Shown here in pieces: positions 20,552-56,413 of a DNA stretch of 64,000 nucleotides. The DNA lies in NCBI RefSeq assembly GCF_900258435.1, contig NZ_LT992558.1, positions 988,736 through 1,052,735 on the forward strand, in the 5' to 3' direction. Each line of letters starts with the position of its first letter. Within the stretch, counting starts at the first letter, position 1. Made by a program: the position numbers and the translations under genes. Source of the stretch: Carnobacterium divergens. Its GTDB lineage: Bacteria; Bacillota; Bacilli; Lactobacillales; Carnobacteriaceae. The notes beneath the pieces are model-generated. The model was not told the DNA's origin. It did not search any database and saw only the letters and a program-made list of their open reading frames with translations.

Positions 20552-21412
20552 ATGACAAACATTCACCCAGCAGCCCATATTGGAATGGTGGCCTTAAAAG
20601 TTGAAAACTTGCCATTAATGAGCGAATTCTACCAAGAAATAATTGGATTAGATGTAAAAAAACAAACAGAGACAGAAATACAGCTTGGCAATCAAGAGGA
20701 TAACAAAATTTTATTAAGTCTGCAAAAAGTAGCCCCACAAAAGAAAAATCACTCAACAACTGGCTTATACCACATTGCCTTTTTACTTCCAGAACGAAAA
20801 AATCTAGGGGATAGCTTATACCATCTATTAAAGGCTAAGTATCCATTAGCCGGTGCAAGTGATCATGGGTATAGCGAAGCAATTTATTTAACAGATCCTG
20901 AAGGAAATGGGATTGAAATTTATCGCGATAAACCAAAAGAAGTTTGGACGATTGAATCAGATGGTCGGATTGAGGGCATCACGATTGAAATGGATGCAGA
21001 AGGTGTTTTAGGAGAAGCAACAGGAAGTTTTAGGGGGATGCCATCTGGAACGACGGTTGGTCATGTTCATTTGACTGTAGCAGATTTAGCGAAAACAGAA
21101 GAATTCTATGTTGGCTTAATTGGCATGAGCTTAAAATCAACTTTGCAAAATTCTGCTAAATTTATTGCCGCGGGGGACTATCATCACCATATAGGAACCA
21201 ACATCTGGTCAGGTCGTCATTTACCACCATTGCCAGAAGATATGCGAGGATTAAATTATTTTACCATCGAGGTACCATCAGCAGAAGATACCCAAGCAAT
21301 CGCGTTGCGATTAAATGACGCAGAGTATCCTTTTGAGTGGAGAGAAAATGATACGACACTTGCTGTGACGGATCCAAATGGAATTCATCTTTTAGTGAAA
21401 GTTGAAAAATAA
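20552..21412 (+). CDS. VOC family protein with two glyoxalase/extradiol dioxygenase domains (CatE-like)
   Basis: A 286-residue protein with two vicinal-oxygen-chelate modules: residues ~8-128 (HIGMVALKVENLPLMSEFY ... DPEGNGIEIY) and ~165-284 (GHVHLTVADLAKTEEFYVG ... DPNGIHLLV). Metal ligands fitting a CatE-like arrangement are His in GHVHL, His in the HHHIG segment and a late Glu or acidic residue. CatE-type enzymes are catechol 2,3-dioxygenases or quinone-detoxifying proteins in Bacillus; the activity here is unproven. It is monocistronic with its own promoter and terminator. Confidence 0.87.
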   Translation: MTNIHPAAHIGMVALKVENLPLMSEFYQEIIGLDVKKQTETEIQLGNQEDNKILLSLQKVAPQKKNHSTTGLYHIAFLLPERKNLGDSLYHLLKAKYPLAGASDHGYSEAIYLTDPEGNGIEIYRDKPKEVWTIESDGRIEGITIEMDAEGVLGEATGSFRGMPSGTTVGHVHLTVADLAKTEEFYVGLIGMSLKSTLQNSAKFIAAGDYHHHIGTNIWSGRHLPPLPEDMRGLNYFTIEVPSAEDTQAIALRLNDAEYPFEWRENDTTLAVTDPNGIHLLVKVEK

Positions 21413-21471: not shown

Positions 21472-21526
21472 AAAAACAAATGAACCGATTGACGCTAAAC
21501 AACGTTCAATCGGTTCATTTGTTTTT
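21472..21526. terminator. long inverted repeat, terminator of the lipoprotein pair
   Basis: AAAAACAAATGAACCGATTGA pairs with TCAATCGGTTCATTTGTTTTT (stem of about 21 bp, 13-base loop including a partial CG/CG match). It acts as a minus-strand terminator by its A-run and is usable in both directions. Confidence 0.75.
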
Positions 21527-21555: not shown

Positions 21556-21750
21556 TTAGTTATCTGGCATTTCTATTTTGGCAGTACCATTGCCTTGTTC
21601 AGTCACGTTGACTTTTTTTCCATCTATTTCTTTTACAGTCGTTTTAGCCTGTTCATCTGCCTCTTTCTTGCCACAACCTGCTAAAAAGCTTGTTGAAATA
21701 AATAAAGACGCGAGTGCAACAACGATTAGTTTTAATTTTTTTGATTTCAT
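21556..21750 (-). CDS. small lipoprotein, second of a tandem pair
   Basis: A 64-residue lipoprotein. The signal peptide MKSKKLKLIVVALASLFIS ends in the lipobox LAGC, so the mature, lipid-anchored part is only about 35 residues and contains KEIDGKKVNVTEQGNGTAKIEM. A frame from 21768 is open, but AAAGGAAT lies correctly for ATG 21750. The partner gene 43 bases upstream has the same signal peptide start and the same EI-GKKV core, so the pair arose by duplication. The mature part is probably exposed on the outer face of the membrane. I do not recognise the family. Confidence 0.8.
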   Translation of the reverse strand: MKSKKLKLIVVALASLFISTSFLAGCGKKEADEQAKTTVKEIDGKKVNVTEQGNGTAKIEMPDN

Positions 21751-21793
21751 AAAAAGAATTCCTTTCATCAGTTATTGGTATTCTAGAATATAA

Positions 21794-21961
21794 TTATTTC
21801 ATAGGCGCTAATTGTACCTTTTTACCATTAATTTCTGAAGTAGCCGTTGGTGTTAGTTCCTTTTTATCGTTCTCTTTTTTCCCACAGCCAGTCATTAACC
21901 CTAAAGAGATAAAAGCCATTGTTAAACAAGTAATGATCATTTTTAATTTTTTTGATTTCAT
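21794..21961 (-). CDS. very small lipoprotein (55 residues), first of a tandem pair
   Basis: A 55-codon gene: MKSKKLKMIITCLTMAFIS, then lipobox LMTGC, then a mature part of 30 residues that includes TSEINGKKVQLAPM. AAAGGAG lies eight bases before the ATG. Translation stops at TAA 21796-21794. It shares signal peptide and EINGKKV core with the following lipoprotein. It is transcribed divergently from the response regulator gene and probably together with its paralogue, from a promoter carrying the same three-part motif as the neighbouring exporter operon. The function is unknown; a sensor-accessory or envelope-stress role is inference from context. Confidence 0.8.
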   Translation of the reverse strand: MKSKKLKMIITCLTMAFISLGLMTGCGKKENDKKELTPTATSEINGKKVQLAPMK

Positions 21962-22016
21962 AAAATTGCTCCTTTCTTGAATTAAGTCAAGTATAGAAGA
22001 GAATTGTCAAAAAATG

Positions 22017-22045
22017 TATGGAATTCATCTGTATCTTATCTGAAG
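22017..22045 (-). promoter_or_regulatory. predicted response-regulator box upstream of the lipoprotein pair
   Basis: On the minus strand CAGAT-N6-CAGAT-N6-CATA (22042 down to 22017), 11-base period. A -10 box TATACT (21995-21990) lies 25 bases beyond the start of the CATA element. It is the same arrangement as at 22839-22867. Confidence 0.6.
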
Positions 22046-22126
22046 TTTTTATGAAGCCCTTTTCCAAGAGGGAAGTTGTATGCTATTGTACTATTAAAGA
22101 TTGCAACGAAAGTAGGAAAAGTTATT

Positions 22127-22789
22127 GTGAATAAAACAATTTTAGTCGTAGAAGATGATCTAAATACAAATGAAGTGATTTCAATTTTTTTAAGAGAAAA
22201 AGGATACACAGTGGAATCTTTTGATAATGGTGAAAAAGCCTATGAGTTTATTTCAATGAATACAGCCATCGATTTAATTATTGTGGATATCATGCTTCCT
22301 GGAATGGATGGAATTGAATTGTTAACGAAAGTTCGCTCCTTTTCTCAAGTACCAATCATTGTTTTAACAGCAATGGTAGATGAGCAAACCCAACTAGTAA
22401 GCTTTAGTAAACTTGCAGATGATTTTGTTGAAAAACCATTCTCACCGTTACTATTAGTGAAGCGAGTTGAGGCGGTTTTAAGAAGAAGCAATCCAATCAA
22501 GCAAACAAAAACATTCATTGGAGACTATACGATTGAGTTGGATAACTTAAAGGTATTACATGAAGGGAAAGAAGCCTATTTGACCGTCAAGGAAGCCGAA
22601 ATTTTACATTATTTAATTGAAAACCGTGGCAATATTGTCACACGAAAAAAATTGATTGAAAGCGTCTGGGAGTACGATTATGATGTAAATGATCGTTCAT
22701 TAGACACACATATCAAAAACTTACGAAAAAAAATTGGGCAACAAAACATAATTACCTGTAAAGGTCTTGGCTACAAATTAGGTCAATGA
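22127..22789 (+). CDS. OmpR/PhoB family response regulator
   Basis: A 220-residue two-component regulator. The receiver domain (residues ~4-117) has the acidic pair VEDD, the phosphorylated Asp in IVDIMLPGMDG, and Thr/Lys in VLTAM and VEKPF. The winged-helix DNA-binding domain (~125-218) carries the OmpR pattern LTVKEAEILHYLIENRGNIVTRKKLIESVW and RSLDTHIKNLRKKIG. The frame is open from 22076, but GTG 22127 with AGGAAAAG upstream matches the family N-terminus. The partner kinase is encoded after the exporter genes at 26135. A terminator separates this gene from the exporter operon. It probably binds the 11-base-period boxes at 22017-22045 and 22839-22867. Confidence 0.93.
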   Translation: MNKTILVVEDDLNTNEVISIFLREKGYTVESFDNGEKAYEFISMNTAIDLIIVDIMLPGMDGIELLTKVRSFSQVPIIVLTAMVDEQTQLVSFSKLADDFVEKPFSPLLLVKRVEAVLRRSNPIKQTKTFIGDYTIELDNLKVLHEGKEAYLTVKEAEILHYLIENRGNIVTRKKLIESVWEYDYDVNDRSLDTHIKNLRKKIGQQNIITCKGLGYKLGQ

Positions 22790-22838: not shown

Positions 22839-22867
22839 ATACAGATTAAATACAGATAAGTTACATA
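22839..22867 (+). promoter_or_regulatory. predicted response-regulator box of the exporter operon
   Basis: ATACAGAT (22839) and ATACAGAT (22850) are direct repeats with an 11-base period, followed by CATA (22864) at the next period. A -10 box TATGAT (22888-22893) follows without a good -35. This is typical of a promoter activated by an OmpR-type regulator. Confidence 0.65.
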
Positions 22868-22921
22868 ATGGCTTCACGAGGCTTTGGTATGATTTGACTA
22901 GTAAAGAAATGAGGGAAAACA

Positions 22922-24157
22922 ATGATAAAGAAGAAAAAGAAAAAATTAATAATCGCACTAACCGTAGCAGGAATGATCGTTGCAGGTACATCGATTTATG
23001 TAGTATCTAATCAGAAACAACAAGCAAGCAATTTAGTTCAAGATGCGCCTCAAGTAAACAAAGTCAGTGATTTGATGTCTAGTAGCACGTCAAAAGGCGA
23101 ATCTTATTTGACTGGTAAAGTAGCGCCTAATGCAACAAGTAAACTAAATGCAGATTCTGCAAAAGGAAAAATTAATGAAGTATTTGTAAAAGTAGGAGAC
23201 AAAGTAACAAAAGGTCAAAAACTTTTTTCTTATACCAACCCTGATGGTCAAATTGCGATGGAAGAAGCCGAGACTGATCGAACAAAACTCCAAAATAAAC
23301 TCAATCAATTAAACGAATCAATTGCAACAAAACGAACACAATTGACTAAAAAAACGGATGAACTAACAGCATTAACGAATAAAGTCAACAATGCGACTAC
23401 AGAAGAAAAAGAATCTTTAAATCAAGAGAAAAAAAGTTTAGAAGAAACAGTTGAGTTAGGGAAAAATGAGATTGAAACAGCTAAAAGCGAATTAAGTGAT
23501 GCTAAATTAGACTTACAAAAAGCAGAACGCACACAGCAACTAACAAATGAAAAATATGGACGTTCAGAAGTAGTATCAGACGTAGATGGCATTATTCAAA
23601 AAATAGACGATACTCAGATTAACAGCACTGTCAGTGCGGGTTCACAGCCAGAAAGTTTTATGGAAATTATGGATACTTCCGTTTTAAGAGTTCTTGGGAA
23701 AGTAGATGAATTTCAAAAAGGAGAAATTGCAGTTGACCAACCTGTCAAATTAATTGATCGAAAAGATCAAAGTAAAACATGGCGTGGAAAAATTGCTAGA
23801 GTTGATGCAACGGCAACAGACGAAAAAGAGGAAAGTACGATTTCTAAATATCCCTTTGAAGTCGTGATGGAAAATGGAGAAGAGATGCCTAATATTGGCA
23901 ACCATGTCTATATTCAACCTGAAAAAGAAGAAAATGCGAAAGTCAGTCTTCCTACAGATTATATTATGAATGAAAAGGACAAAAAATTTGTTTGGAAAGT
24001 GATCAAAGGTCAAGTTCTTAAACAAGAAGTAACCCTAGGAAAATCAAATGAAGAAGCCAAGACGATTGAAGTTAACGCGGGATTAACAAAAGAAGATACA
24101 ATTGTTTTTCCAACAAAACTTATTAAAGAAGGAATGAAGGTGCCAATTCATGATTAG
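22922..24157 (+). CDS. membrane fusion (HlyD/YknX/MacA-like) component of an ABC exporter
   Basis: A 411-residue protein with an N-terminal membrane anchor (residues ~8-27 after KKKKKK), a split lipoyl domain (GKINEVFVKVGDKVTKGQKLF and YGRSEVVSDVDGIIQKI), a long coiled-coil hairpin between them (~residues 115-205), and a C-terminal beta-barrel region. Family members such as YknX or MacA stabilise and gate MacB-type permeases on the outside of the membrane. The stop overlaps the ATPase gene by eight bases. Expression probably depends on the response regulator through the box 55-85 bases upstream of the ATG. Confidence 0.9.
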   Translation: MIKKKKKKLIIALTVAGMIVAGTSIYVVSNQKQQASNLVQDAPQVNKVSDLMSSSTSKGESYLTGKVAPNATSKLNADSAKGKINEVFVKVGDKVTKGQKLFSYTNPDGQIAMEEAETDRTKLQNKLNQLNESIATKRTQLTKKTDELTALTNKVNNATTEEKESLNQEKKSLEETVELGKNEIETAKSELSDAKLDLQKAERTQQLTNEKYGRSEVVSDVDGIIQKIDDTQINSTVSAGSQPESFMEIMDTSVLRVLGKVDEFQKGEIAVDQPVKLIDRKDQSKTWRGKIARVDATATDEKEESTISKYPFEVVMENGEEMPNIGNHVYIQPEKEENAKVSLPTDYIMNEKDKKFVWKVIKGQVLKQEVTLGKSNEEAKTIEVNAGLTKEDTIVFPTKLIKEGMKVPIHD

Positions 24158-24839
24158 CTTGAAAAACATTTATAAATCTTATTGGCAAGGAGAAGAAGAA
24201 ATAGCGATTTTAAAAAACATCAATTTAGAAATAGAAAAAGGGGATTACATTTCAATTATGGGACCTTCTGGCTCTGGGAAATCGACCTTAATGAACATCA
24301 TTGGTTGTTTAGATAAACCAACTTCTGGAGACTACCACATCTATGATACAGATATTTTAAACTTAAACGAGCGCCAACTATCTGACTTACGAAATCAATC
24401 CATAGGATTTGTCTTTCAAAATTTCAATTTAATGCCACGTTTGTCCGTTCAAAAAAATGTAGAACTGCCCTTGATTTATTCAAAAATAACAAAATATGAG
24501 CGTTCAAGAAGAGCCGTTAGTGCCCTTGATAAGGTTGGATTATCTCAACGGTTAAGCTTTCGACCACCTGCTCTTTCAGGGGGACAAAAACAACGTGTTG
24601 CGATTGCAAGAGCATTAGTAACGAATTCTGATTTTATTTTAGCGGATGAACCAACAGGAGCGTTGGATACAAAAACAAGTACGGAAATTATGGCGCTTTT
24701 TGATGAATTTAATCACCTAGGTAAAACGATTATTATTATTACTCATGAAGCTGAAATTGCCGATTATACAAATCGAAAAATTGTGATTCGTGATGGTGAA
24801 ATTATTTCAGATGAACGAAAGGAGGCATTAGATGAGTGA
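24150..24839 (+). CDS. ABC exporter ATPase (MacB/LolD/YknY type)
   Basis: A 229-residue nucleotide-binding subunit with Walker [10 protein letters not shown] (~residues 36-44), Q-loop FVFQNFNL, signature LSGGQKQR, Walker [12 protein letters not shown] and switch His in ITHE. All catalytic residues are intact. It drives the MacB-type permease encoded next, with which it overlaps by eight bases, as it does with the membrane fusion gene. This is typical of mechanotransmission exporters that act on periplasmic or extracellular substrates such as peptides. Confidence 0.95.
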
Positions 24840-26061
24840 AAATATTTTGCTTTCATTAGAGTCGATTTGGGCCCATAAATTACGATCGATTTTAACGATG
24901 ATTGGTGTGATTATTGGAATTGGTTCCATTGTTGCTATTTTTAGTATTGTTGAAGGAAATACAGAAAACACTAAAAAAAGTATGTTAGGTGGAGAAAACA
25001 ATAGTATTTCGTTACAATACGCAACAAAGGAGACGCTAAGTGGACAATATGGTAACGATAATGGAAAGAAGCCGGACTATCTAAAGCCGCTTACTTCGCA
25101 GCAAATTAAACAAGTTCAAACGGTTGCTGGTGTTAAGGACGCAACGGTAAGCTATGAAGCTGAAACCGATGTGAGCCTTAAAAATAACTCTGTTACGAGT
25201 AAAATTTTAGGCATTACAGAGAACTATTTTAATTACGAAGGGTATTCTTTGCTAGAAGGCAGACTGTTAAATCAAAGCGATTATGCTCTTTCAGAACAAG
25301 TAGCAGTAGTAGATCAGTCACTTTATAAACAGTTATTTCCAAAAGAAGATGGCATTGGTAAGTTGATTGAAATTAAAGGGCTACCCTACCGACTTGTAGG
25401 TGTCGTAAAACCCAAAGAAGATCAACAAACGGGAATGTTTTCATTTGATAAAAAAACAGATCGAGCGTTTGTGAGCATTAACAACTGGTCTAAGTTCATG
25501 GGCACTCTTAATCCAGAGCCTAAAGTAACAGTTCAAACAGAAAAATCAGATGATTTACAGCCAGTTGCTAATCGTGTGGCCGATACGTTAAATAAAATGA
25601 TTCCTAAATCCGATTATTTATTTGGTATTCAAAATTCAAAGGAAATGGAAAAAAGTATGGAAGAGTATGCACGTTCTCAATTCCAATTATTAGGTGGCCT
25701 TGCGAGTATTTCTTTAATTGTAGGGGGAATTGGCGTGATGAATATTATGCTCGTTTCCGTAACTGAGCGAACGCGTGAAATAGGAATCAAAAAAGCACTA
25801 GGAGCAAGGCGAGAAACAATCTTAACCCAATTTCTGATGGAGTCTATTGTATTGACTTTATTGGGTGGTATTTTAGGAATTACCCTTGGTTTAGCTGGAG
25901 GAAAACTAGCAACAAGCTTATTGGGCTATCCTTATTATATCTCGCTAATTGCCATTCTAGGAAGTGTCTTATTTTCAATTGCTATTGGATTGATTTTTGG
26001 ATTATTGCCAGCCATGAAGGCCTCTCGTCTAGATCCAATTGAGGCATTACGATACGAATAA
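24832..26061 (+). CDS. MacB/FtsX-type ABC exporter permease (YknZ-like)
   Basis: A 409-residue permease with four membrane helices: one near residues 15-40, a large extracellular MacB-type core domain (~45-285), then three helices. The FtsX motif RTREIGIKKALGARRETILTQFLMESI precedes helix 3. With the fusion protein and ATPase it forms a complete MacAB-like exporter. The kinase gene follows after 73 bases, with only a weak inverted repeat between, so read-through is likely. The substrate is unknown: antimicrobial or signalling peptide is the usual guess for such TCS-linked exporters. Confidence 0.93.
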   Translation: MSENILLSLESIWAHKLRSILTMIGVIIGIGSIVAIFSIVEGNTENTKKSMLGGENNSISLQYATKETLSGQYGNDNGKKPDYLKPLTSQQIKQVQTVAGVKDATVSYEAETDVSLKNNSVTSKILGITENYFNYEGYSLLEGRLLNQSDYALSEQVAVVDQSLYKQLFPKEDGIGKLIEIKGLPYRLVGVVKPKEDQQTGMFSFDKKTDRAFVSINNWSKFMGTLNPEPKVTVQTEKSDDLQPVANRVADTLNKMIPKSDYLFGIQNSKEMEKSMEEYARSQFQLLGGLASISLIVGGIGVMNIMLVSVTERTREIGIKKALGARRETILTQFLMESIVLTLLGGILGITLGLAGGKLATSLLGYPYYISLIAILGSVLFSIAIGLIFGLLPAMKASRLDPIEALRYE

Positions 26062-26134: not shown

Positions 26135-27562
26135 TTGAAAATCAGAACAAAAAATTTTCTTTATACTTCAGGAATCATCATCCTTATTGTGACGATTGCT
26201 TTTAGTATTCTGTATCTTTTGATGCCTAATTATTATCAAATGAAGAAGGAAAGAGAACTTAAAGTCGCAATAAAACTTGTCGTTACAAAAATAGAAGAAC
26301 AGCCAACTTCATTAGATTCCTTTCAAATTTTGTCACAAGAATCCTTTTATAGCGGATTGACCTTTATTTTGAAGGATCCTAATGGGAAGATCATTTACCC
26401 AAATACGCTACAATTATCTGATGCAGCCAATCTACAGCAAACTAATGAAGTGCAGCAGGTTGAAGGAGCAGCGATTTTATTTTCAGATTTAGAAGAAATT
26501 GCCACGTATAGTCAAACGGCAAAAGTAAATAATGATTTACAGTATTTGACCTATAATGAAGCGTTTAAAGACAATCAGCAAAGAAAGTATGTGTTAACGG
26601 TCATTTATCCGTTACAACCCATTAATGAGGCTCAAGAAGTTCTTCTTGACATCTATCCGTTAGTCTTGCTGATTTGTTTTGTAATTGGGGCCTTTGGTGC
26701 CTATTTATATTCCTATTTCTCAACAAAAAGAATTACTAAAATTTCTGAAACTACTAGACAAATGACGTTTTCTAATGAAATTCTAGCGAATGATATCAAG
26801 GGCGTTGATGAAATCAGTGAATTGTCTAAAGATATTCACTATTTGCATGCGAGCTTGGTAACTACAAATGAACAATTAAATCAGGATTTACTAATTATTT
26901 CAAAACTTGAAAATTCAAAAACCGAGTTTATGCAGATGGCTTCTCACGAACTAAAAACCCCATTGACTGCACTTTCAGGGATTGTTGAAGGAATGGTGCA
27001 TAAAGTAGGACCGTACCAAGATCGAGATAACTATTTAGAAGTGTGCCAAATGCTATTAAAGGAGCAAGCAGACTTAATTAATGATATTCTTTATATTTCA
27101 AAATTAGATAAAATAGAAGAACAAAAAAAGACAACTTTCCAATTAAATGAATTAATTGAAGCGGAGCTCCCTAAATTTGAATCGTTTGTTATTAAGCAAG
27201 ATTATCACTTGGAGATTGCATTAGAGCCAGTCAAAGTCAAAGCAAATCCAGCAGAAGTCCAAAGAGTCATTTCTAATTTAATCAGTAATGCAATGAAGTA
27301 TACAAAAGCAGGCGGACGGATTAGTCTTACGGTAACTAAGGGGGAATTCCAAATTAAAAACGAATGCGAACCTTTAAAAGAACAAGAATTAGACCAAATT
27401 TTTGAAGCCTTTTACCGACCTGATTTTGCTAGAAATAGAAAAGATGGTGGGACAGGACTAGGGTTATTTATTGTCAGTCAACTTTTGAAAAAAAATCAAT
27501 TAGGTTATGAATTTGTCCCGCTGGAAAAGGGTCAAGGAATGGTGTTTAAACTATTTTTTTGA
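26135..27562 (+). CDS. sensor histidine kinase, partner of the upstream response regulator
   Basis: A 475-residue membrane kinase with helix 1 (~8-30), an extracellular sensor domain (~31-172), helix 2 (~173-195), HAMP-like linker, phospho-acceptor motif MASHELKTPLTALSG, N-box NLISNAMKYTKAGG and G-box GGTGLGLFIVSQLL. The start is TTG, eight bases after AGGAGG. It lies downstream of the exporter it probably controls, with the regulator gene in front of the exporter. The sensor domain shows no recognised ligand motif. Confidence 0.9.
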   Translation: MKIRTKNFLYTSGIIILIVTIAFSILYLLMPNYYQMKKERELKVAIKLVVTKIEEQPTSLDSFQILSQESFYSGLTFILKDPNGKIIYPNTLQLSDAANLQQTNEVQQVEGAAILFSDLEEIATYSQTAKVNNDLQYLTYNEAFKDNQQRKYVLTVIYPLQPINEAQEVLLDIYPLVLLICFVIGAFGAYLYSYFSTKRITKISETTRQMTFSNEILANDIKGVDEISELSKDIHYLHASLVTTNEQLNQDLLIISKLENSKTEFMQMASHELKTPLTALSGIVEGMVHKVGPYQDRDNYLEVCQMLLKEQADLINDILYISKLDKIEEQKKTTFQLNELIEAELPKFESFVIKQDYHLEIALEPVKVKANPAEVQRVISNLISNAMKYTKAGGRISLTVTKGEFQIKNECEPLKEQELDQIFEAFYRPDFARNRKDGGTGLGLFIVSQLLKKNQLGYEFVPLEKGQGMVFKLFF

Positions 27563-54275: not shown

Positions 54276-54995
54276 ATGAAAATATTAATGATTGAAGACA
54301 ACCAATCTGTCTGTGAAATGATGGAAATGTTCTTCTTAAAAGAAGATTGGGATGCAACTTTTAAACAAGATGGGAAGGAAGGCTTAGATGCTTTTTTAAC
54401 GCAACCAAATGCGTGGGACATTATTACCTTAGATTTAAATTTACCAACAATGGATGGCATTCAAATATGCCGTGAAATTCGAAAAGTGTCAAAAATCGTT
54501 CCAATTATCATGTTGACGGCAAAAGATTCTGAAAGCGATCAAGTGATTGGGTTAGAAATGGGAGCAGATGATTATGTCACAAAACCATTTAGTCCATTAA
54601 CGTTAATTGCCCGTATTAAAGCCCTTCATCGTCGCGCGGATTTAGGACATGAGGAAGGCGTAGGAAGTCCAGCAAAAAATACAGATTTTGAAGTTGAAAC
54701 GGATCACCTTAAAATCAATACTAAAACAAGAGAAGCCTTTTTGTATCATAAACCAATTGAAGGACTTACACCAAAAGAGTTTGAATTGCTATACACACTG
54801 GCTAAAAATCCAAAACAAGTTTTTTCAAGAGAACAGCTATTGACGATCGTTTGGGATTATCAATACTATGGCGATGAACGAACGGTTGATGCCCATATTA
54901 AAAAGTTGCGTCAAAAAATTGAAAAAACAGGTCCACAAGTGATTCAAACAGTTTGGGGTGTTGGATACAAATTTGATGACACTGGAGTTGAATAG
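54276..54995 (+). CDS. OmpR/PhoB family response regulator
   Basis: A 239-residue regulator: receiver (~1-120) with IEDN, phospho-Asp in ITLDLNLPTMDG, MLTAKD and KPFSPL; a 20-residue linker; then a winged-helix domain with PIEGLTPKEFELLYTLAKNPKQVFSREQLLTIVW and RTVDAHIKKLRQKI. The kinase gene starts two bases after its stop, so the pair is co-translated. The target genes are not obvious from the sequence. Confidence 0.93.
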   Translation: MKILMIEDNQSVCEMMEMFFLKEDWDATFKQDGKEGLDAFLTQPNAWDIITLDLNLPTMDGIQICREIRKVSKIVPIIMLTAKDSESDQVIGLEMGADDYVTKPFSPLTLIARIKALHRRADLGHEEGVGSPAKNTDFEVETDHLKINTKTREAFLYHKPIEGLTPKEFELLYTLAKNPKQVFSREQLLTIVWDYQYYGDERTVDAHIKKLRQKIEKTGPQVIQTVWGVGYKFDDTGVE

Positions 54996-54997
54996 TA

Positions 54998-56413
54998 TTG
55001 AAATACCTTTATCAACAAATGTTGGCATTTTTTGCAGTAATTTTGACCATTTTAGTCATTATTGGCATTTCGTTTTCAAATTTTGCTAGTAGTACCGTTT
55101 ATAAAAATACTGAAAAACAATTATATGGTTATGCACAATCAGTTATTGATGATGGTTTAATTAATCAAGTTGATTTGATTCAAGTGGTGTTAAAAAGTCA
55201 AAATGTAAATATGTCTATTTTCAATGAAGAAAAACAAATGATTGCTCCTAAACAAGAACAAAATTACTCTTTAAACATTTCTGAAAAAGATTGGAAAACA
55301 TTGCAAGCTGGGAATCAGATTGCTTCTTCAATTAACAATACCGACTTTTTAGGAAACAAAGTGGAGCAAATTCGAGTTTTTCAACCATTTTTTAAGCGAG
55401 ACACAGGAAAATTTGCCGGTGTAGTAGCTGTTGAAGCTCCAGTTAGTGGGGTAGAGTCTAGTATTAAGGACTTAAAGCATAACTTATTTATTGCGTTATT
55501 ACTTTCTAGCGTGGGAGCGATGTTTTTAAGTTTCTTTTTAGCAAAATATCAAGTCAACCGAATTAATCGAATGCGAAAAGCAACTCATCGCATTTCCCAA
55601 GGGGATTTTGATGTCTATTTAGAAAATAAAGATCGTGATGAATTTGATGACTTGGCAGAAGATTTTAATGGTATGGCACGCTCTTTAAAAGCTTCTCATG
55701 AAGAAATTGAGCGTCAGGAGAACCGTAGACGTCAATTTATGGCAGATGCAGCTCATGAGATGCGCACGCCGTTAACGACGATTAACGGCTTGTTAGAAGG
55801 CTTAGAATACGATATGATTCCTGAAAATCAGAAAAAGCGTAGCATTCAGTTGATGCAAAATGAAACAAGGAGACTGATTCGTTTAGTAAATGAAAATCTT
55901 GATTATGAAAAAATCCGTTCAAATCAAATTAGTTTAACAAAACAAACTTTCAATGCAGAAGAAGCCTTAACGGTGATTGTAGAGCAACTAAAAACGAAAG
56001 CCAATGATGCTGGAAATCAATTAGAATTAAACTGCCCAGCAGATTTAACCGTATATGCTGATTATGATCGATTCGTTCAAATTATTGTAAATATTCTTCA
56101 AAATGCAATTCAATTTACAACGGATGGCAGTATTGTTATTAAGGGTTCAAAAACGTTAACTGAAACAATTATTGAAATTCAAGATAATGGAATTGGAATG
56201 ACAGCACAAGAAGTTGAAAACATTTGGGAACGATACTACAAAGCAGATGTTTCAAGAAAAAACACCAAGTATGGTGAGTCTGGATTAGGATTGGCGATTG
56301 TTCAACAATTGATGAATTTACATCAAGCGAACGTAACGGTCACAAGTGAAAAAGGAGTAGGGACTACTTTTAAGCTTGCATTTCCAATTGAAACAACGGA
56401 TAAAAAGGATTAA
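54998..56413 (+). CDS. sensor histidine kinase with HAMP domain
   Basis: A 471-residue kinase with membrane helices at ~8-28 and ~165-187, an extracellular sensor domain between, a HAMP domain (KYQVNRINRMRKATHRISQGDFDVYLENKDRDEFDDLAEDF region), H-box FMADAAHEMRTPLTTINGLLEG, N-box NILQNAIQFT and G-box GESGLGLAIVQQLM. The start is TTG with GGAG eight bases upstream. The architecture resembles CssS/SasA-type envelope kinases, but the stimulus is unknown. Confidence 0.92.
   Translation: MKYLYQQMLAFFAVILTILVIIGISFSNFASSTVYKNTEKQLYGYAQSVIDDGLINQVDLIQVVLKSQNVNMSIFNEEKQMIAPKQEQNYSLNISEKDWKTLQAGNQIASSINNTDFLGNKVEQIRVFQPFFKRDTGKFAGVVAVEAPVSGVESSIKDLKHNLFIALLLSSVGAMFLSFFLAKYQVNRINRMRKATHRISQGDFDVYLENKDRDEFDDLAEDFNGMARSLKASHEEIERQENRRRQFMADAAHEMRTPLTTINGLLEGLEYDMIPENQKKRSIQLMQNETRRLIRLVNENLDYEKIRSNQISLTKQTFNAEEALTVIVEQLKTKANDAGNQLELNCPADLTVYADYDRFVQIIVNILQNAIQFTTDGSIVIKGSKTLTETIIEIQDNGIGMTAQEVENIWERYYKADVSRKNTKYGESGLGLAIVQQLMNLHQANVTVTSEKGVGTTFKLAFPIETTDKKD

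Follow-up and report, generated by a model that had tools for sequence, protein, structure and literature searches.

Tandem micro-lipoproteins as candidate accessories of a MacAB-like pump encoded with a two-component system

MacAB-like pumps of Gram-positive bacteria combine an adaptor, a separate ATPase and a permease with MacB_PCD and FtsX domains. BceAB-type modules have a ten-transmembrane permease, no adaptor, and a kinase that senses through the transporter. Spr0693-0694-0695 of Streptococcus pneumoniae is an adaptor, ATPase and MacB-type permease set that provides peptide resistance; it has three components, and the available text of the report describes neither a small lipoprotein nor a two-component system (PMC5768738). 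YknWXYZ of Bacillus is a Gram-positive MacAB-like pump with a fourth accessory protein, YknW, which modulates assembly. YknW is a Yip1-family integral membrane protein, and the available text mentions no two-component system (PMC4887032). A review of MacB transporters, as far as its available text goes, considers it possible that such pumps are influenced by additional small proteins (PMC5985334).

The locus described here encodes a pump of the MacAB-like kind together with two very small lipoproteins. It lies in the window, the whole GC-poor stretch of 64 kb that was analysed from a 2.8-Mb genome (G000:C4). An operon on the plus strand encodes an OmpR/PhoB-type response regulator (RR; 22127-22789; Response_reg, Trans_reg_C), a MacA/HlyD-type adaptor (MFP; 22922-24157; HlyD_3 at 5.5e-8 and RND_mfp at 3.7e-26, the latter just below the cut-off), a MacB/LolD-type ABC ATPase (24150-24839; ABC_tran, 2.1e-33), a MacB-type permease (24832-26061; MacB_PCD, 8.1e-32; FtsX, 1.3e-22), and a sensor histidine kinase (HK; 26135-27562; HisKA, HATPase_c). 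Adaptor, separate ATPase and permease with both domains are thus all present, and a BceAB-type module does not fit: the permease has 409 amino acids and carries MacB_PCD and FtsX, and the adaptor is there. Judged from its sequence, the HK has an extracellular part of its own between two transmembrane segments. A second RR/HK pair, at 54276-56413 of the window, has no linked pump. Divergent from RR and 165 bp away, the lipoprotein genes LP1 (21794-21961; 55 codons) and LP2 (21556-21750; 64 codons) lie in tandem on the minus strand, 43 bp apart. The preliminary description had placed them next to a kinase; they do share its locus, but their immediate neighbor is RR, and the kinase begins 4.2 kb away at 26135.

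LP1 and LP2 both start with MKSKKLK, followed by a hydrophobic stretch and a lipobox (LMTGC in LP1, FLAGC in LP2), and so conform to the type II signal peptide pattern of basic N-region, hydrophobic stretch and lipobox cysteine. The L-M-T-G-C box of LP1 is less canonical than the L-A-G-C box of LP2. Both products are predicted to be lipid-attached and anchored to the membrane, with mature parts of 30 (LP1) and 39 (LP2) residues. They are 53% identical overall and have a common core, EI(N/D)GKKV; LP2 has the full core KEIDGKKVNVTEQGNGTAKIEM, and LP1 has only the first core hairpin, SEINGKKV. Sequences resembling ribosome-binding sites precede LP1 (AAAGGAG) and LP2 (GAAAGGA), and an alternative longer LP2 start at 21768, which would overlap this ribosome-binding-site-like sequence, is less likely. 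A strict lipoprotein pattern for products of 40-100 residues retrieved exactly LP1 and LP2 from the 64-kb window and no ORF from ten random 64-kb sequences generated by a first-order Markov model of the window. An inverted repeat (21472-21526, assigned to neither strand) between LP2 and a convergent VOC gene (20552-21412, plus strand) is a likely terminator common to both (-37.5 kcal/mol, z -8.0; none of 200 shuffles matched it).

Among 59 relatives, clear copies of LP1 and LP2 (E <1e-9) occur only in the window genome and its sister G001, the two being about 97% identical in DNA. All 168 bases of LP1 are the same in both genomes. In LP2, 10 of 195 bases differ (six synonymous changes and four non-synonymous, which spare the mature core), giving a pN/pS of 0.18 compared to 0.08 to 0.29 for seven neighboring genes; this pattern fits a translated, constrained gene, the sample being small and from one genome pair. 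Loss of the frames in close relatives had been named beforehand as evidence against the pair; with both frames intact in the sister genome, the description of tandem micro-lipoproteins with lipoboxes, short mature parts and a common core is borne out. A third genome of the genus has only a weak match (4.2e-5), inside a 127-residue frame, and the pump was not found in that stretch. In G001, an insertion of about 16 kb (L035:1-5806, L053:7691-19501) separates RR from MFP. It carries genes for surface proteins, which we take to be WxL-type, and DUF916-like and Mga-like regulator genes, and it is bordered by duplicated pieces of the end of RR and the start of MFP. A reading in which G001 had lost pump and kinase and kept the lipoproteins was rejected, since both are intact beyond the insertion, 97-99% identical to those in the window.

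Linkage in other genera indicates that such lipoproteins accompany the pump. An HK search (E<=1e-50) of 395 genomes, a sample of the larger order with one genome per species, gave 27 places in 26 genomes, and all 27 loci (the window, G001, L054 and L085-L108) were read; because of kinship these locus counts are not independent. MFP, ATPase and permease lie beside RR and HK in 11 of the 27, and all 11 encode a small lipoprotein of 55-90 residues, assigned by motif scan and profile to one small lipoprotein family (SLP). By the same two methods, an SLP was found in none of the 16 RR/HK loci without the pump. A 97-residue lipoprotein in L094 was considered and rejected, since its match of 5.5e-5 came from the signal peptide and fell to 3.2 with the mature part only. 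Gene order is SLP-MFP-ATPase-permease-RR-HK in six loci (L085, L089, L096, L097, L103, L107) and MFP-ATPase-permease-RR-HK-SLP in three (L086-L088). L088 has an intact SLP frame and interrupted permease and kinase frames, through either decay or sequencing error.

The loci that went into the SLP profile are those where the linkage was first seen, and it is only a genome-wide search and plasmid records that test the linkage beyond them. Searches of tblastn type outside the genus with whole LP1 and LP2 found lipoprotein signal peptides only; because whole-sequence queries match signal peptides, mature-part profiles and pump neighbors were used. With mature parts only as queries, 11 of the 395 genomes had a match at E<=1e-4, and the next one (4.2e-4) lay inside a 795-residue frame. 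The permease search set 17 places in 16 genomes (E<=2.2e-95) clearly apart from all others, the next match being at 4.3e-67. All 11 SLP genomes fall within these 16 pump-clade genomes, and SLP was found in none of the other 379. Of 398 genomes drawn from the class, the window's own was the only one to reach E<=1e-4.

The permease also occurs in five Enterococcus plasmid records, of which three were opened. The full set, including SLP, is present on Enterococcus mundtii plasmid pP6-6, where the SLP is WP_074802108.1 (annotated "hypothetical protein"), and on an E. faecalis plasmid, while an E. gallinarum plasmid with the pump carries a 192-residue lipoprotein in place of SLP. Neither LP2 nor the L086 member, used as query, matched anything in the plasmids, though more divergent members occur on them. 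The chromosomal SLP at L103:4522-4776, in a genome of another family (f8), is almost identical to that of the E. faecalis plasmid (L150:3800-4054), which points to a recent transfer of the whole set. Lone SLP genes with a promoter box were seen at L139:8818-9081 and L140:8451-8717. The latter has on either side the genes that flank the complete operon in L088, suggesting that the rest of the operon was lost from there or moved.

The family is characterized by a DG(K/Q/E) beta-hairpin core with the pattern (I/V)(D/N)G(K/Q/E).. followed by (D/N)G; both halves are present in LP2 and only the first in LP1. Conservation of 90% or more across 14 SLP rows is confined to M1, L and C of the lipobox, and the core residues D, G and G. 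With a profile made from nine other members' mature parts, LP2 scored 11.4 bits, a value reached by 20 of 5000 shuffles, and LP1 scored 7.4 bits (61 of 5000), so kinship outside the signal peptide is modest when judged from sequence alone. Taken with position and promoter, the assignment of LP1 and LP2 to SLP is convincing. Both are shorter than every other member, and the best explanation is that they are reduced, duplicated members. AlphaFold predicts the LP2 core as a three-stranded meander (strands 36-42, 45-51 and 57-60) and places strands of the L087 member at 49-57, 60-67 and 72-76. Local confidence in the core strands of these models is 77-89; global confidence is low (pLDDT 65 and 66, pTM 0.32 and 0.41), with only the hairpin core above 75. 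The best PDB sequence match had an E of 0.36, and Foldseek with the L087 model gave 0 of 681 matches at E<=0.001 and only small three-stranded sheets.

A promoter element ties the lipoprotein genes to the pump. Tandem repeats of about 11 bp (CAGAT-type), taken here as putative RR boxes, lie upstream of LP1, of MFP, and of SLP genes elsewhere. The box of the LP1-LP2 promoter (22013-22056, minus strand; 22.0 bits) has the 11-bp direct repeats CAGATAAGATA / CAGATGAATTC / CATACAT, then TATACT; that of the pump promoter (22839-22882, plus strand; 22.8 bits) reads CAGATTAAATA / CAGATAAGTTA / CATAATG, then TATGAT. The profile drew on the MFP promoters of three loci in another genus (L086, L087, L088) and contained nothing from the window. 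Its best two sites in the 64 kb are the pump (MFP) promoter and then the LP1 promoter, with the next separate site at 11.6 bits. Of 500 column-permuted profiles, one reached 22 bits at any position of the window and none did so in the gap between LP1 and RR. The putative LP1 box is unchanged in G001. In the other genus, the profile matched the separate SLP promoters of L086-L088 and the lone SLP genes of L139 and L140, after which scores drop from 22.3 to 11.6. Matches are weaker in L085, L089, L096, L103 and L107 (roughly 5 to 15 bits, whichever profile is used; 5 to 9 bits for the boxes of all but L103), yet the SLP promoter is among the two best sites in each; in L097 it is not among the two best profile sites of the locus. 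The pattern TWCAGATWARATACAGAT, with no mismatches, occurs genome-wide at two sites in each of two genomes, all of them LP1 and pump promoters; it was made from those two sites and indicates rarity only. With three mismatches, a control pattern was found about as often in G000 (24 against 32) and less often in G001 (15 against 50). Because a pump profile from another genus selects the pump and LP1 promoters as its two best sites, LP1 and LP2 very probably belong to the RR regulon, with RR presumably binding the repeats.

We propose that LP1 and LP2 are RR-induced, lipid-anchored accessories of the MacAB-like pump, a reading to which we give about an even chance of being correct. The kinase would sense a stimulus, probably a membrane-active peptide or antibiotic, and phosphorylated RR would bind the tandem 11-bp repeats, so that the pump and LP1 promoters both fire. 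The lipoproteins would then be secreted and lipid-anchored on the outer face of the membrane, beside adaptor and permease. There the short beta-hairpin core, on a flexible linker, may contact the pump and set its assembly, substrate capture or activity. Peptides are a guess for the substrate, made by analogy with Spr0693-0695 and YknWXYZ.

A two-component system and a pump putatively under its control offer two possible partners, and the phylogenetic trees separate them to some extent. The SLP label changes twice on the permease tree (19 rows) and five times on the HK tree (32 rows), where starred branches force at least four of the five changes. The permease tree omits L098 and L099 (partial permease matches) and L088 (broken permease frame), and the HK tree includes L107 and L088 as partial frames. 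On these trees SLP follows the pump, not the kinase. In L090 and L091, whose kinases are close kin of SLP-bearing ones, the pump is lost and both boxes are kept, with no SLP frame after the second, which indicates that SLP and pump were lost together and RR-HK stayed. Strong RR-type boxes without SLP or pump lie at L087:10806 (no long frame behind it), L090:2033 and 4457, and L091:9082 and 11552, near a 368-residue integrase; these resemble scars left where pump and SLP genes were lost. A sister pump lineage, whose RR/HK is different, has lipoproteins of 164-192 residues that are unrelated to SLP, fit no Pfam family and are encoded directly after the permease (L146:9524-10018, L147:7948-8496, L149:7199-7777). 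This suggests that pumps of this type have benefited from a lipoprotein partner on more than one occasion.

A role between pump and kinase is the main competitor, though an unlikely one. SLP would report pump occupancy to the extracellular part of HK, or restrain it, and so act as a feedback or flux-sensing connector. Four pump-clade loci of one genus (L142-L145) have neither a linked RR/HK nor SLP; they indicate that the pump can exist without SLP, and together with the 16 pump-less loci they leave SLP linked only where pump and RR/HK are both present. The putative RR-type promoter of SLP also agrees with such a connector, and a precedent exists in YsaD of Lactococcus lactis, which, in the available text of the report, is said to modulate signal relay (PMC7438565). 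The kinase tree argues the other way, as do the 16 related kinases that manage without SLP, and the pump-only cases come from one genus and count as one event. The earlier suggestion that the lipoproteins modulate the sensor is therefore weakened by the tree signal and keeps some footing in L142-L145. The wider link to a sensing and export system holds, given the linkage in other genera, the common promoter element, and the joint loss of pump and lipoprotein.

The same early suggestion offered a decoy as its second option, and we consider this distinctly improbable. An abundant acidic lipoprotein would bind a cationic peptide at the membrane and pass it to the pump, much as lantibiotic immunity lipoproteins do. 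Mature parts are acidic in all 11 scored members of other genera (net charge -5 to -10), and MacAB-like pumps protect against peptides, including LL-37 (PMC5768738) and SDP (PMC4887032), in the available texts. The window pair is not acidic, however (LP1 +3, LP2 -1), the mature part of LP1 has 30 residues, and no bacteriocin gene was recognized beside LP1-LP2 in a reading of the ORF lists. The option suits the acidic relatives better than the pair for which it was put forward.

Two further readings are very unlikely. LP1 and LP2 could be dispensable passengers, small translated lipoproteins carried along with a promoter and without a role in the pump. Their small size, the missing second core half of LP1, and the existence of unlinked SLP copies and empty boxes would agree with this, but SLP is kept in 11 of 11 complete loci and in both plasmid sets, LP2 codons are constrained, and LP1 is identical in the sister species. 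With an equally slight prospect, SLP could itself be the cargo, extracted from the membrane by the MacB/LolD-type pump and released either loaded with the noxious peptide or as a signal. LolCDE is a lipoprotein-releasing relative of such pumps, and the cargo reading, if true, would account for the small size of SLP, for its association with the pump and not with the kinase, and for its response to the same induction cue. Release of the signal-peptide tail as a pheromone, as from enterococcal sex-pheromone lipoproteins, would suit a very short mature part and a hydrophobic signal-peptide end but is extremely improbable, because the 14 rows have no conserved hydrophobic peptide there (that end varies even between LP1 and LP2) and conserve the mature core instead, and the coding changes in LP2, whose codons are constrained, leave that core untouched.

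Curated families do not cover these proteins. The best matches of LP1 and LP2 were ExtJ in NCBIfam (1.8e-4, 21.8 bits; cut-off 52.5), 0.08 in Pfam and 0.0015 in PHROGs, with none in PADLOC, and other SLP members likewise had no fitting family in these four collections. The lantibiotic immunity lipoproteins NisI and SpaI also work next to an ABC transporter, under the control of a two-component system, and are much larger. Against immunity lipoprotein family profiles, LP1 and LP2 gave no match at E<=1. Among open-licence PMC papers, judged by listing and abstract, none was found that describes the SLP family, which does not prove absence; the family is apparently undescribed. SLP genes usually lack annotation, and gene callers easily miss such genes.

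In enterococci and lactic acid bacteria, the family accompanies a peptide or drug pump that answers to a two-gene sensing system. Gram-positive MacAB-like pumps are known for peptide resistance, and SLP adds a specific candidate accessory family with a defined regulon element; relatives with the pump, without the pump and without the kinase form a ready set for comparing partnership with pump and with kinase. LP1 and LP2 are the smallest members of the SLP family. YsaD resembles SLP in several respects: it is small and exported, its gene accompanies those of an ABC transporter, and it is controlled by the two-component system paired with that transporter (PMC7438565). Its transporter, YsaCB, is BceAB-like and has no adaptor, and YsaD is called a secreted peptide, the word "lipoprotein" being absent from the available text (PMC7438565). 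VraH of Staphylococcus aureus VraDEH is, in the available texts, a small membrane-associated accessory of a MacB-superfamily peptide-resistance transporter (PMC5985334, PMC7438565). It differs from SLP in being a two-transmembrane protein with cytoplasmic ends rather than a lipoprotein, and its transporter is of the BceAB type. As far as these texts show, small accessory proteins of MacB-superfamily transporters are thus known (VraH, YknW, YsaD), and what is apparently new here is a lipoprotein, putatively co-regulated with a MacAB-like pump.
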